Positions 25,520 through 30,332 of a DNA stretch of 37,914 bases are shown here, in pieces (the first letter of the stretch is position 1; each line of letters opens with the position of its first letter). The notes beneath the pieces are model-generated. The model was not told the origin of the DNA. It saw only the letters and a program-made list of their open reading frames with translations, and made no database searches. The translations under genes were made by a program, and so were the position numbers. The stretch comes from Terriglobia bacterium (lineage in GTDB: Bacteria; Acidobacteriota; Terriglobia; Bryobacterales; Bryobacteraceae), in NCBI GenBank assembly GCA_025358575.1, contig JANYJA010000062.1, positions 1 through 37,914 on the forward strand. The letters are read 5' to 3'.

Positions 25520-26220
25520 TGCGTCGGCGCTCCTTCCTTTTTCTGCCGTTCTTCCATCACCACTATGTTACCTGGGCCGGAATCCGCTTCCGGGTGCGCC
25601 GTTACGGCCATGGGCCGCGACGGTACCTCTTCATTCATGGAAACGAAGCCACTGCCCGCCAGGTGCTCGAAATCCACATGGAAACGCACGCTGGAATCGC
25701 GTACCTGGTTACCAATTCAGACCGCAATGTGGCGGTAGGCGGTGGGCAGTTCGATCCGAATCGCATCTTCTCGCGCGAAGGCGCGTCGGCCAGTCTGCGC
25801 AAATTTAATCCCGATTGGACGCCCGAGCGCGTCTCGGCAGCCGCGGATTTTTTGGACCGCGGAGCGCAACAACTGGTCAAGCACGTCACTCCGCCCCGCG
25901 GCGGTCTGCTGGTGGCGTTGCATAATAATTCGGAAACCTACTCGGTGCTTGACGAGCGGGCCGATAGCGATCAAGTCTCCATCCGGCAGCCGGAGCGTCC
26001 CCATGAATTCTTTTTGGCCACCGATCCGAGCGATTTTGCAAAGTTAGCGCAATCGCCGTACAACGTGGTGTTGCAGACTGGAAAACTCGGCACGGAGGAT
26101 GGATCCCTATCGCGGCTGTCGGCTAGAAAGGGTTTTCGTTACGTCAATCTGGAATGCCGAGCGGGCCAGTTCGAGGCGCAGATGGAACGCCTCGGGTGGC
26201 TCGAACAGCACCTTACATGA
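25519..26220 (+). CDS. M14-like zinc carboxypeptidase / succinylglutamate-desuccinylase-type protein
   Basis: This is a compact 233-residue protein with the marks of the M14 fold: HGNE (His40, Glu43) as the first two zinc ligands, DPNRIF (Asn81-Arg82) in the place of the substrate-binding Asn-Arg, His135 in VALHNNSE as third ligand, and Glu212 as possible catalytic base. There is no signal peptide, so it is probably cytosolic. It is shorter than ordinary M14 carboxypeptidases (about 300 aa). The substrate is unknown: a peptide, a muropeptide or an N-acyl amino acid. ATG 25519 is the first start after an in-frame stop at 25495; its Shine-Dalgarno is poor. The 3' end overlaps dnaJ by 8 nt on the other strand. 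Confidence 0.7.
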
Positions 26221-27331
26221 AATAGTCTTTCACCTTCTCGAACAAGCCTTTTTCTTTGGGCTCATTATTGACTGGCAGCGTTTCCTGCAATTGCTCAAAC
26301 AGGCGGCGCTGGTCGCGCGTAAGCTTAGTGGGCACTTTAACTTCAATGTGAACGACGATGTCGCCCCGGCCATGCCCGTTCACTACGGCGATGCCTTGAT
26401 TCCGCAATCGGAATGTCGCGCCACTCTGCGCGCCCTCGGGAATGCGCAAAGTGTGGCTGGCTTCAAGAGTTGGGACAGAAATCTCAGCCCCCAGCGCCGC
26501 TTGCGTGATAGTAATGGGAATGGCGCAATGCAGGTCATTCTCGTGACGCTCGAAGAACGCATGTTCCAGCACCTTCAAAAACACGTAAAGATCGCCGTTG
26601 GGACCGCCGTTCGCGCCGGGTTGGCCCTCCTGCGAGAGTCTCAGGCGATTGCCATCGGCCACGCCAGCCGGAATGTTCACCTTTAGCTTGCGGTTTACTC
26701 GCTTGGAACCTTCGCCCCGGCAATCGCGGCAAGGATTCCGAATGATTTTGCCGCCCCCTCCGCACTGGTTGCAGGTGCGCCGCACGGAAAGGAAACCCTG
26801 CTGATAAAGCGTTTCGCCCCGGCCTTTGCACGCGGGACAAGTCACCGGTGCGCTCCCCGGTTCCGATCCTTTACCCTCACAATGGGCGCAAGTCTCTAGC
26901 CGAGGCACCTGAATTTCCGCGCTCATCCCAAAGGCTGCATCTTCGAAACTGATTTCCAGATCGTAGCGAACGTCTTCGCCGCGCTGAGCACGGCTTCGCC
27001 CGCGCCCGCCACCAGTGCCGAATATGTCCCCAAAGCCAAACTGGCTGAGGATGTCGCCAAGATCGAAATCCTGGCTGAATCCCTGACTGCCGCCCGCTCC
27101 CTGCACGCCTTGATGACCGAAACGATCGTAGGCCGCGCGCTTCTGGCCGTCGGTCAGAACCGAGTAGGCTTCCGCCGCTTCCTTGAAACGCTCTTCGGCT
27201 TCATGATTGTCGGGATTGCGATCGGGATGATGCTGCAACGCCAGCTTGCGATAAGCCGCCTTGAGCTGCGACTCGTCGGCATCGCGAGTCACTCCCAAAA
27301 TCTCGTAATAATCTCGTTTGGTCACAGGCAT
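26213..27331 (-). CDS. dnaJ: Chaperone protein DnaJ
   Basis: This 372-residue type I Hsp40 stimulates DnaK ATPase and delivers unfolded proteins. The J domain (1-70) has the essential HPD at His35-Asp37 (LQHHPDRNP). A Gly/Phe linker runs to about 125 ([11 protein letters not shown]). Four zinc-finger motifs follow: [24 protein letters not shown] and CRDCRGEG, all cysteines present. The C-terminal substrate domains complete the family length. It starts 12 nt after grpE on the same strand, in the hrcA-grpE-dnaJ order, and should be heat-inducible through the upstream CIRCE-like operator. dnaK is not adjacent. Confidence 0.97.
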
Positions 27332-27343
27332 GTTTGGATGCGC

Positions 27344-27904
27344 TTATGGACGTACCGCAACCTTCACCATCGAAGGCCGCAGCAGTTTCCCCTTGAAATG
27401 ATAGCCCTTTTGATATTCCCCGAGAACCGCATGATCTTCAGCGTCTTCACTCTGCACTTTTTCGACTGCCTGATGCAGATGAGGATCAAAGGTCTTGCCT
27501 TCCGTCTCAATGGGTTCCAAGCCCATCTTCTTCAATACATCCACCATGCGCTGATAAATTAGTGCAATGCCCTTGGAATAATCGTTGCTTATTTTGTTTG
27601 CGCCCATGGCCCGCTCGAAATCGTCCAAAATGGGCAAAACTTCACGCACGAATTCCATCCCGGCATATTGCACAAATTCGGACCTGTCGCGTTCACTGCG
27701 CCGACGGAAATTGTCAAAATCAGCCTGCCGCCTGAGGAGCAAATCCTGCAGCTCCGCCTTCTCCAGAGCCAATTGATCTCTTTCGGCACTCAGGGAGCTT
27801 AGTTGCGCCGCCAGATCCGACCCGCTCATGTTCTCTCCGAGCGGATTGCTATTCTCTTCTGCTGAAACACCAGGGATATTCGGATTCGACATATTCGCGC
27901 TCAC
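27344..27904 (-). CDS. grpE: Nucleotide exchange factor GrpE
   Basis: This 186-residue GrpE releases ADP from DnaK. It has a Ser/Asn/Glu-rich disordered N-terminus (1-35) and a long dimerisation helix (about 35-85, with LRRQADFDNFRRRSERDR). The conserved LPILDDFERAM and the C-terminal beta domain with FDPHLHQAV, GYHFKGKLLRPSMVKV follow. The start is GTG 27904; ATG 27892 is a close alternative, and neither has a strong Shine-Dalgarno. It lies between hrcA (38 nt upstream) and dnaJ (12 nt downstream). Confidence 0.95.
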   Translation of the reverse strand: MSANMSNPNIPGVSAEENSNPLGENMSGSDLAAQLSSLSAERDQLALEKAELQDLLLRRQADFDNFRRRSERDRSEFVQYAGMEFVREVLPILDDFERAMGANKISNDYSKGIALIYQRMVDVLKKMGLEPIETEGKTFDPHLHQAVEKVQSEDAEDHAVLGEYQKGYHFKGKLLRPSMVKVAVRP

Positions 27905-27942: not shown

Positions 27943-28980
27943 TCAGGGCCGCGGACCGGCCAATTCCCGGCCAATTTGCATCACCGAGGACATAACCCGC
28001 TCATAGTTCATCCGAATCGGACCCAACACCGCAATACGGGCGATAAGCCCCCCCGGCAGATTAACCGATAAGCCAATCAGCGAAAGCTCCTTCATGGCCG
28101 GATGTGCATCGGCGAGCCCCACTTGAATCCCCAATTCCCCGCTAGATTGTTCCAGAAAACGATCCAAAAGCTCGACGACGCGTTTCTTCTCTTCCAGCGC
28201 GCGGAACAGGTCTCGCATTCTTTCTCTAGTGAGATGAAGATCTAGGCCCACCAGATTCGACGCGCCTTCCATGTGAATACGCGGATTGCCATCTAGTTCC
28301 AGAAGGCCCTTGTCGTAAAGGATGGTGAGCCGCTGCAGCACGGCATCGTACGCCGCGCGCTCTTCCTCAATTCGACGCAAAAGTTCCCTCCGCGCATCCC
28401 CCAGTTTCCAACCCGCGAAGTTGTGGTTAACGTAGTTGCGCAAATGGTTCAAATCGTCCTGCGAGATCGCTTCGTCGAGCGCGACGACGCGATTCCGAAC
28501 CATGCGGTCCCGAGTGACCAGGATCATCAGCACCCGCTTTTCGCTGAGAGTGAGGAGTTCAATCTGCTCAAGCTCCTGTGATGTTGCCGGCATGGCCGCC
28601 GCGATACCCACGTTGCGGGTCAAGTCGGTCAGAATTCGGGAAGAACACTCGATTCGCGCTTCCACCGTATCTTCCTGATTCATTTGGGCACTCACCCGCT
28701 CGCGATCCGCTGCGGGCATGGGCTTGGCCGTAAGGCTCCTGACGTAGAAGCGAAATGCTTTCTCCGTCGGAACACGCCCGGCCGAAGTATGAGGCTGCGC
28801 CAAATAGCCCTCATCGGCAAGATCCGCCATGACGTTCCGGATGGAGGCTGGGCTTAGGGCGCTGTTTCGCAGTTTCGAGAGAGTTCGCGAACCTAGCGGC
28901 TCCCCCGTCTCGATATAAGCGCGCACAATCGATCGCAGAATGTCTTCCGCTCTCCCGCTTAAACCTTCCTCAAATGTCAT
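27943..28980 (-). CDS. hrcA: Heat-inducible transcription repressor HrcA
   Basis: HrcA (345 residues) represses chaperone operons by binding CIRCE and is released when GroEL is occupied. The N-terminal winged helix is clear: EDILRSIVRAYIETGEPLGS, then SPASIRNVMADLADEGYLAQ and PHTSAGRVPTEKAFRFYV. The GAF-like core and C-terminal part (GGLIARIAVLGPIRMNYERV) are typical. ATG 28980 gives the family length. It heads the hrcA-grpE-dnaJ operon. A near-consensus promoter and a degenerate CIRCE lie 31-75 nt upstream, so autoregulation is likely. Confidence 0.96.
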   Translation of the reverse strand: MTFEEGLSGRAEDILRSIVRAYIETGEPLGSRTLSKLRNSALSPASIRNVMADLADEGYLAQPHTSAGRVPTEKAFRFYVRSLTAKPMPAADRERVSAQMNQEDTVEARIECSSRILTDLTRNVGIAAAMPATSQELEQIELLTLSEKRVLMILVTRDRMVRNRVVALDEAISQDDLNHLRNYVNHNFAGWKLGDARRELLRRIEEERAAYDAVLQRLTILYDKGLLELDGNPRIHMEGASNLVGLDLHLTRERMRDLFRALEEKKRVVELLDRFLEQSSGELGIQVGLADAHPAMKELSLIGLSVNLPGGLIARIAVLGPIRMNYERVMSSVMQIGRELAGPRP

Positions 28981-29010
28981 GGTTGTAGTAAATATTGCCG
29001 AACAACCCTT

Positions 29011-29039
29011 ATTCTATCCGTACAGATGTTGGCAGTCAA
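29011..29039 (-). promoter_or_regulatory. Sigma70-type promoter of hrcA-grpE-dnaJ
   Basis: On the minus strand TTGACT (complement of 29034-29039) and TAGAAT (complement of 29011-29016) are separated by exactly 17 nt. The -10 ends 30 nt before the hrcA ATG. The -35 lies inside the CIRCE-like inverted repeat. Confidence 0.75.
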
Positions 29040-29055
29040 GCCAGCCGGGTGCTAA
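29029..29055 (-). promoter_or_regulatory. Degenerate CIRCE operator (HrcA binding site)
   Basis: On the minus strand the site reads TTAGCACCC, nine spacer bases, GACTGCCAA. The CIRCE consensus is TTAGCACTC-N9-GAGTGCTAA: the first arm matches 8 of 9 bases, the second 7 of 9, and the spacer length is exact. It overlaps the -35 of the hrcA promoter, where a bound repressor would block RNA polymerase. Confidence 0.72.
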
Positions 29056-29179
29056 TCAGGAGCAGTAGGTACTTAGTGCTCAACGCTTTACGTATCACCG
29101 AATTGTTGCTCGAAGGCGTGACCCGGTATTGCGCCCTCTGATAGACTGAGTGTTTTCGTTTTTCGGGAGGAGCGAGACA

Positions 29180-29575
29180 TTGGGAATATTTCGAAATATA
29201 CTCCGCGGTTATGGTTGGATCTTCGAAGGAATACTTAGTGTGCTGGCTATCGGCGTGGCCGTTCTGGCCTCGATGAGCCGCAGGGCGGAACTCAGAATTG
29301 CATGGCTCCCCTGGACAGGACCGCAACTCACAACGTGGCTTGCGGCACTCGGCGGGTTGGGCCTGCTCTGCGTGGTTCTAGCCACTTTCGGCAAACTCCG
29401 CATCCCCCTATTCCTATTTAGCTTCGCGGCGGCATTTCTGCTGGCCCGGGGTTTGTTTTTCACTTCCAACACATTCGCTGACCCCGGCGAGGCCAAGAGG
29501 GCGATCGAACTGGTAGCGGCCGCTCTCATCGCGACGATCGGTTCCTGGCCATTGGCGACTCGCTCAAGGCGTTAG
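29180..29575 (+). CDS. Small multi-pass membrane protein, unknown function
   Basis: This 131-residue protein is mostly hydrophobic, with about four membrane segments: WIFEGILSVLAIGVAVLA, LTTWLAALGGLGLLCVVLA, IPLFLFSFAAAFLLARGLFF and ELVAAALIATIGSWPLA. I recognise no family. I start at TTG 29180 because GGGAGG (29165-29170) lies 9 nt upstream; the frame is open to GTG 29150. It is divergent from hrcA and convergent with the FecR-like gene. Probably real, judging from the Shine-Dalgarno and the regular membrane topology. Confidence 0.6.
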   Translation: MGIFRNILRGYGWIFEGILSVLAIGVAVLASMSRRAELRIAWLPWTGPQLTTWLAALGGLGLLCVVLATFGKLRIPLFLFSFAAAFLLARGLFFTSNTFADPGEAKRAIELVAAALIATIGSWPLATRSRR

Positions 29576-29598: not shown

Positions 29599-29632
29599 AA
29601 AAAAGGCCTCAACCCTTGTGGGTTGAGGCCTT
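29599..29632 (-). terminator. Rho-independent terminator of the FecR-like gene
   Basis: A perfect 12-bp stem (29603-29614 with 29621-29632; arm AAGGCCTCAACC) has a 6-nt loop. On the minus strand the stem runs directly into six T residues. It lies 23 nt after the stop of the FecR-like gene. On the plus strand there is no T-tract, so it mainly serves the minus strand. Confidence 0.88.
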
Positions 29633-29654: not shown

Positions 29655-30332
29655 TTACGGACGGCCCGGGCTGATCGCTTGCGAGGGAACGCTTTCGCCT
29701 TGAGTGGCGAGAACGCCTATGGTTGTACCGACAGCAGCCACAATTACGATTCCCGCGACTATCACGGCACCAGAAGCGGCACCCGCGCCCATCTTACGAC
29801 GTGGATGATCTTTGTCAGCCGGGGGCGGCGCGGCGCCAGCATCCTGCGGCGTGAAGTTAAAAGCTAAACCAGGTCCAATGTTGGCAAGTAGAACGCCCGC
29901 GGCATTGGTAACCCGCAAGGTACCGCTAAGCGAAGATACCTGCACGGTCGGTCCGCTCAAAGCGACGCGCGCCGAAGCGTTGGTTTCAGTCCCGGCCACG
30001 CGAATTTGCTGGGCTTCCACTTGGTAGTGGTTGGGCGACGAAAACTGCGTAGATCCCTTTTCCAGAACCAAACGGTCGCTGTAAATCTTTCCCCGCGAGT
30101 CCGAAGCCATTAGCACGCTCGAACCATCCTTGTATTGCAAGCGCGAAGAGGCCTTCCCGGTTTCGATGGTATTGCCTTCAAAAATCGTTGCATTTCCCGC
30201 CGTGCGCGCGTTGTCGATCATTATGCTGCCGTTCGACTGTGCAACACCAATAACCGGCGTCGCGGCTGGCAAAATAGCCACATTCGCCGAAAGTAAGGCG
30301 GCGACCAGCGTCTGTACCGTAACTTTATTCAT
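29655..30332 (-). CDS. FecR-like exported protein with C-terminal membrane segment
   Basis: This 225-residue protein has a signal peptide (VAALLSANVAILPAATP). A FecR-type beta domain follows (about 30-165; GNTIETGKASSRLQYKDGSS, RLVLEKGSTQF, SGTLRVTNAAGVLLANIGPG), then a Pro/Lys/Arg-rich linker (about 165-182). The hydrophobic helix AASGAVIVAGIVIVAAVGTTIGVLA (186-210) gives it a possible anchor at the far end, unlike classical FecR, which has its anchor before the FecR domain. No ECF sigma factor is adjacent. ATG 30332 has GGAGGA 6-7 nt upstream. A strong promoter and terminator frame it as a single-gene unit that is probably well expressed. Confidence 0.75.
   Translation of the reverse strand: MNKVTVQTLVAALLSANVAILPAATPVIGVAQSNGSIMIDNARTAGNATIFEGNTIETGKASSRLQYKDGSSVLMASDSRGKIYSDRLVLEKGSTQFSSPNHYQVEAQQIRVAGTETNASARVALSGPTVQVSSLSGTLRVTNAAGVLLANIGPGLAFNFTPQDAGAAPPPADKDHPRRKMGAGAASGAVIVAGIVIVAAVGTTIGVLATQGESVPSQAISPGRP

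Follow-up and report, generated by a model that had tools for sequence, protein, structure and literature searches.

The genes hrcA, grpE and dnaJ are located head to tail, with small gaps, on the minus strand of the window (the whole stretch of DNA that was analysed, one contig of 37,914 nucleotides from a member of the Bryobacteraceae), and a CIRCE-like element lies on the -35 hexamer of a promoter-like sequence before hrcA. The features are the following.

26213..27331 (-): dnaJ (TIGR02349 and PRK10767, both above cut-offs)
27344..27904 (-): grpE (PF01025, 1.1e-43)
27943..28980 (-): hrcA, heat-inducible transcription repressor, 345 aa (TIGR00331, 252.7 bits for a cut-off of 197.2; PF01628)
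29011..29016 (-): -10 hexamer TAGAAT, after a 17-nt spacer (promoter scan)
29034..29039 (-): -35 hexamer TTGACT (promoter scan)
29029..29055 (-): degenerate CIRCE, TTAGCACCC-N9-GACTGCCAA, with 3/18 mismatches to CIRCE (pattern scan)
29047..29055 (-): first CIRCE arm, TTAGCACCC, 8/9 match
29029..29037 (-): second CIRCE arm, GACTGCCAA, 7/9 match, its first four bases being the end of the -35

The domain-family matches supported the gene identities given in the first-pass annotation, and HrcA residues 7-184 aligned to the structure 1stz, which we take to be a Thermotoga-type HrcA. The hrcA intergenic region, of 169 bp, is shared with a divergent ORF at 29150-29575. At 29603-29632 (-) a GC-rich stem of 13 pairs with a T-rich tail resembles a terminator; it comes after the ORF 30332..29655 (-) and would insulate this ORF from the hrcA region.

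The promoter scan gave TTGACT-N17-TAGAAT (29039..29011), matching at 10/12 positions, as the sole minus-strand promoter-like match in 28900-29250; this is the 17-nt-spaced sigma70-type promoter that had been noticed under the element. Shuffles of this 351-bp region contained 0.5 promoter-like matches, so that the match by itself is weak, but the promoter is common in the family: a promoter of at least 9/12 was found in 89 of 159 family hrcA upstream regions, compared to 4/159 shuffled ones. Among these 89 promoters the -35 was TTGACC in 53, and the commonest -10 hexamers were TACAAT (27) and TAGAAT (24).

Sequence of the CIRCE-like element

Read toward hrcA, the arms TTAGCACCC (29055..29047) and GACTGCCAA (29037..29029) are separated by 9 nt, and the coordinates, arm matches and exact spacer given by the first-pass annotation were correct. 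The CIRCE/HrcA operator consensus, as it appears in excerpts of PMC545781 and PMC7464140, is TTAGCACTC-N9-GAGTGCTAA. Both 9-nt arms are thus present in degenerate form, together with the 9-nt spacer, the position in a chaperone-operon promoter region and an HrcA encoded in the genome. Conservation at orthologous promoters, a supporting but not a defining property, was absent, the only one of the 159 family regions with the element being that of the source genome itself.

Two details of the original description had to be corrected. The second arm, said to hold the whole TTGACT hexamer, takes in only GACT, the TT being spacer bases. The two arms are mutually complementary at just 6/9 positions, so that the element, first presented as an inverted repeat, is better described as a match to CIRCE than as a good repeat.

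It had also been proposed that the -35 explains the deviation of the second arm from the consensus. Only one of the three deviations, the G to C change at position 3 of the second arm, lies inside the hexamer, so that the proposal holds in part at most. Four genomes of genus g53 (L309-L312) have the same GAG-to-GAC change in their groESL CIRCEs, as does L111 in its hrcA CIRCE, and in none of these genes does the altered base fall in a TTGAC box; CIRCEs therefore vary at that base anyway, and the -35 as sole cause of the degenerate arm was ruled out. The family's usual -35, TTGACC, reads TTGACT in the source genome, and that T is a CIRCE base, which may hint, from one genome, at an influence in the opposite direction, of the CIRCE on the -35.

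Distribution of the element and the question of chance

The family sample consisted of 159 hrcA upstream regions from 158 genomes, one of which contributed two; 224 of the 237 genomes searched had an hrcA match. The regions were 400 bp long except for seven shorter ones (134-302 bp), and 155 of them passed an orientation check, the remaining four being accepted by eye from the translation. Conservation upstream of hrcA in relatives had been set beforehand as the refuting test, and it failed: none of the 158 other regions carried a CIRCE before hrcA, so that a CIRCE at hrcA inherited throughout the family is not supported by the regions read, and the reading moves from inherited control to a lineage-specific gain. 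The best CIRCE match of the source genome had 3 mismatches; one other region reached 5, at a place 209 bp before its hrcA match, and all remaining regions had 6 to 9. Thirty-two Bryobacterales hrcA loci (L079-L108, L152, L156) also gave 6 to 9 mismatches; they were kept out of the count, many being genomes already in the sample. In the nearest relative (L161/L079), whose HrcA is 77% identical over 338 residues (the L161 HrcA score equals that of L079), hrcA of L161 is preceded by TTGAAC-N17-TACAAT without CIRCE arms.

The absence in relatives was not taken as refuting the site, because the site is far outside the family background. When the family promoters were compared in the same register to the -35, the first arm matched at 8/9 positions in the source genome and at 0-5/9 in the 87 others, and the second arm at 7/9 compared to 1-5/9. 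Each arm is separately an outlier among these 88 promoters, and both are therefore peculiar to the source genome. The 237 family genomes were also scanned with a composite pattern of CIRCE and TTGACT box in the register of the hrcA site (at most 3 mismatches), which gave 23 places in 20 genomes. The stretches around these places, 20 loci, were compared with hrcA, grpE, dnaJ, groES, groEL and dnaK: nine lay by groES/groEL and eleven by none of the six genes, two of the eleven near a contig end, so that a second hrcA case was not seen.

We considered whether an operator-less family promoter had drifted by chance to a three-mismatch match, HrcA not controlling its own operon, as is probably the case elsewhere in the family. 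Dinucleotide shuffles of the window contained on average 0.02 sites at no more than 3 mismatches (two of 100 shuffles had one). In the 4.77-Mb genome the hrcA site alone reaches this threshold, and a reversed control pattern likewise gave a single place; the genome-wide count alone is therefore unremarkable and agrees with chance, the placement before hrcA being what is remarkable. In Markov simulations, which used three compositions and are rough estimates as each gave 2 to 9 simulated hits, the 169-bp intergenic region was expected to contain 1.4e-5 to 6.5e-5 sites at this threshold, and the pooled 159 family regions 0.006 to 0.027. For sites with up to 5 mismatches, 1.2 to 2.0 were expected in the 159 regions and two were observed (the hrcA site and the one at 5), showing that the background behaves as modelled. 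The missing conservation in the 158 other regions speaks for chance, as does the description of groESL, in PMC545781, as the one HrcA target that is constant in delta-proteobacteria. The small expectation for the intergenic region, the distance of all other family regions (at least 5 mismatches) and the two outlying arms speak against it, and we regard chance as unlikely, though it is the strongest of the alternatives.

The shared intergenic region suggests that the element could be used by another regulator, or belong to the divergent ORF 29150-29575, and not to hrcA. The match is specific to CIRCE, and the sole plus-strand promoter-like match (29174-29202) is more than 100 bp away, inside the ORF as listed; such a role appears very improbable.

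Comparison with conserved CIRCEs and the pairing of groESL CIRCE with hrcA

The 159 family hrcA regions were scored on both strands with two profiles, the true sites in these comparisons being supported by conservation, not by binding. With a profile from 24 family groESL CIRCEs, which is asymmetric and hence strand-dependent, the hrcA site scored 20.2 on the strand opposite hrcA and 9.9 on the other; left-out true sites had a lowest score of 22.8 and a median of 33.6, and the next best family hrcA region reached 4.2. With a symmetric profile from 18 Terriglobales-type hrcA CIRCEs the site scored 20.4, compared to a lowest of 21.8 and a median of 29.1 for left-out true sites and 8.0 for the next best family region. 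In both profiles the site thus scores slightly lower than any true site, a point in favour of chance, and far above the family background. Among the CIRCEs compared it is the weakest, with 4 fewer matches than expected, as counted by eye on one consensus.

The presence of a CIRCE before groESL in the same genome had been proposed as a check, and one was found, differing from the family form at 1 position and from the classical form at 4. The family groESL CIRCE is TTGTCACTC-N9-GTGTGCTAATAATA, and the promoter reads TTGTCACTC-N9-GTGTGCTAA, then TAATA. In our reading, the left arm contains a -35-like TTGTCA or TTGACA and a -10-like TAATAA stands at the right arm, so this CIRCE seems to cover the region from -35 to -10. 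A partly conserved block, approximately TTTTCA-N5-TTACA in the consensus of 24 promoters, was observed about 10-25 bp upstream of the groESL CIRCE (for example in L058, upstream of groES) and is possibly a second control element or an UP-like region.

A groEL CIRCE (at most 4 mismatches) was present at 24 of the 27 first-listed family groEL loci, and the remaining three genomes (G005, G008, G020) had one at another groEL copy; with G009 included, hrcA and a groESL CIRCE occurred together in all 28 family genomes examined, out of 37 searched. Class relatives with hrcA exhibited the CIRCE at all three groEL regions read in G058 and G059 and at one of two in G060. By contrast with these hrcA-bearing genomes, 11 genomes of the order or class that had no hrcA match gave no CIRCE at up to 4 mismatches in any of 14 groEL regions (best 5 to 9). 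In another family of the same order (f3), all 18 genomes were without an hrcA match and 13 groEL regions from 10 of them were without a CIRCE; repressor and operator are jointly absent there. The pairing is imperfect, since the 98%-complete genome G104 (L309) had a groESL CIRCE with 2 mismatches and no TIGR00331 match: its hrcA may be lacking in the assembly, may have diverged, or may have been lost while the operator stayed.

At dnaK no CIRCE was found in the source genome, the best match having 7 mismatches at the two strongest HSP70 loci (L074, L075). Two CIRCEs were observed at other places. One, with 1 mismatch, lies at 1544-1570 of L313 (G114), just before an ORF that resembles a Gfo/Idh-type oxidoreductase as judged from its sequence; the 3.1 kb around it had neither a groESL nor an hrcA match. 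The other, with 2 mismatches, lies at 123-149 of L316 (G143), close to a contig end, with no hrcA, grpE, dnaJ, groES, groEL or dnaK match in the surrounding 1.8 kb.

Origin and proposed function of the hrcA site, and known systems

Forty-six Terriglobales-type hrcA loci were compared (L109-L158 minus L152, L153, L156 and L158, namely two Bryobacterales, one locus cut at its 5' end and one Sneathiella). A CIRCE with at most 3 mismatches was found in 18, and the other 28 had none within 500 bp of hrcA (221 bp in one), so that the CIRCE at hrcA is variable there also. In 16 of the 18 sites the CIRCE starts 28-31 nt before the -35, compared to 16 nt in the source genome. The class relative L002 has a CIRCE before hrcA with 4 mismatches.

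These sites could indicate that an ancestor had an hrcA CIRCE, which the source lineage kept in a decayed and shifted form and the rest of the family lost. The HrcA tree (64 rows, four rows with a stop sign in the aligned stretch being left out) placed the source HrcA beside L161 with a support of 99/75, nested within the family, in a group of eight rows (98/88), the seven others being without a CIRCE at hrcA. Retention would thus need many separate losses as well as a shift of register to the -35, a separate gain being the shortest account, and we find retention quite improbable. Parsimony on this tree points to a site gained, not retained, in the source lineage.

The stretches S-P-A-S-I-R-N and Q-P-H-T-S-A-G-R of the HrcA core wHTH agree with Terriglobales-type HrcAs that have an hrcA CIRCE. 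Between 26 family and 18 Terriglobales-type HrcAs the commonest residue differs at many positions, and the helix-turn-helix core and QPHTSAGR agree; position 30 is G in the source genome, the Terriglobales residue, and A in 18 of the 26 family sequences. An altered HrcA reading head behind the loss at hrcA was rejected, as the helix-turn-helix core and QPHTSAGR agree between the two sets.

We consider it likely that the element is a degenerate, functional HrcA operator, gained in the source lineage on the existing sigma70-type -35 of hrcA-grpE-dnaJ. GroEL keeps HrcA active, and its titration on heat shock relieves repression, a model that reportedly goes back to Mogk in 1997. At normal temperature GroEL would keep HrcA active, and an HrcA dimer on both arms would cover the -35 and exclude RNA polymerase; on heat shock, GroEL would be titrated, HrcA would become inactive and the operon would be derepressed. 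The outcome would be negative autoregulation of the hrcA operon. HrcA binding and the steric block are what we infer for this site, and the GroEL-HrcA cycle is taken over from general knowledge of the HrcA family. The occurrence in one genome only, the register to the -35, different from that of Terriglobales-type sites, and the weakest score count against a functional operator. With somewhat less confidence, we favour a history in which the family otherwise has a plain TTGACC-type hrcA promoter and a groESL CIRCE, and one lineage built a CIRCE round the -35 and regained autoregulation in a new register.

A search of a collection of papers for CIRCE and HrcA in Acidobacteria gave nothing on the topic, and the present analysis describes the HrcA operators of this acidobacterial family. 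The switch is of a known kind and knowledge of the mechanism is unchanged. The hrcA site shares with the CIRCE/HrcA operator the arms, the 9-nt spacer, the place before hrcA-grpE-dnaJ and the presence of hrcA, and differs by its 3/18 arm deviations, its lack of conservation at family hrcA genes and its position on the -35. The family groESL CIRCE, from the same family and genome, likewise has an arm that in our reading may act as a -35 (TTGTCA), but all 28 family genomes examined have it, and the hrcA site occurs in only one. Terriglobales-type hrcA CIRCEs also lie before hrcA at a TTGACA - TAGAAT-like promoter with a 17- or 18-nt spacer; theirs is just upstream of, and beside, the -35, whereas that of the source genome is on it. 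The groEL2 promoter of Myxococcus xanthus, also a chaperone promoter, has a CIRCE that overlaps its -35 (PMC9040617); the gene is another one there, its promoter is described as a sigma32 target, and HrcA binding is reported. In Campylobacter, according to excerpts of PMC7464140, HrcA covers the core promoter and start site, and steric hindrance of the polymerase is the authors' likely model. In the delta-proteobacteria, according to PMC545781, HrcA control is constant at groESL alone and varies at the hrcA operon. The source family has this pattern as well and offers a case, mapped onto a tree, in which autoregulation of the heat-shock repressor can come and go with the groESL target fixed.
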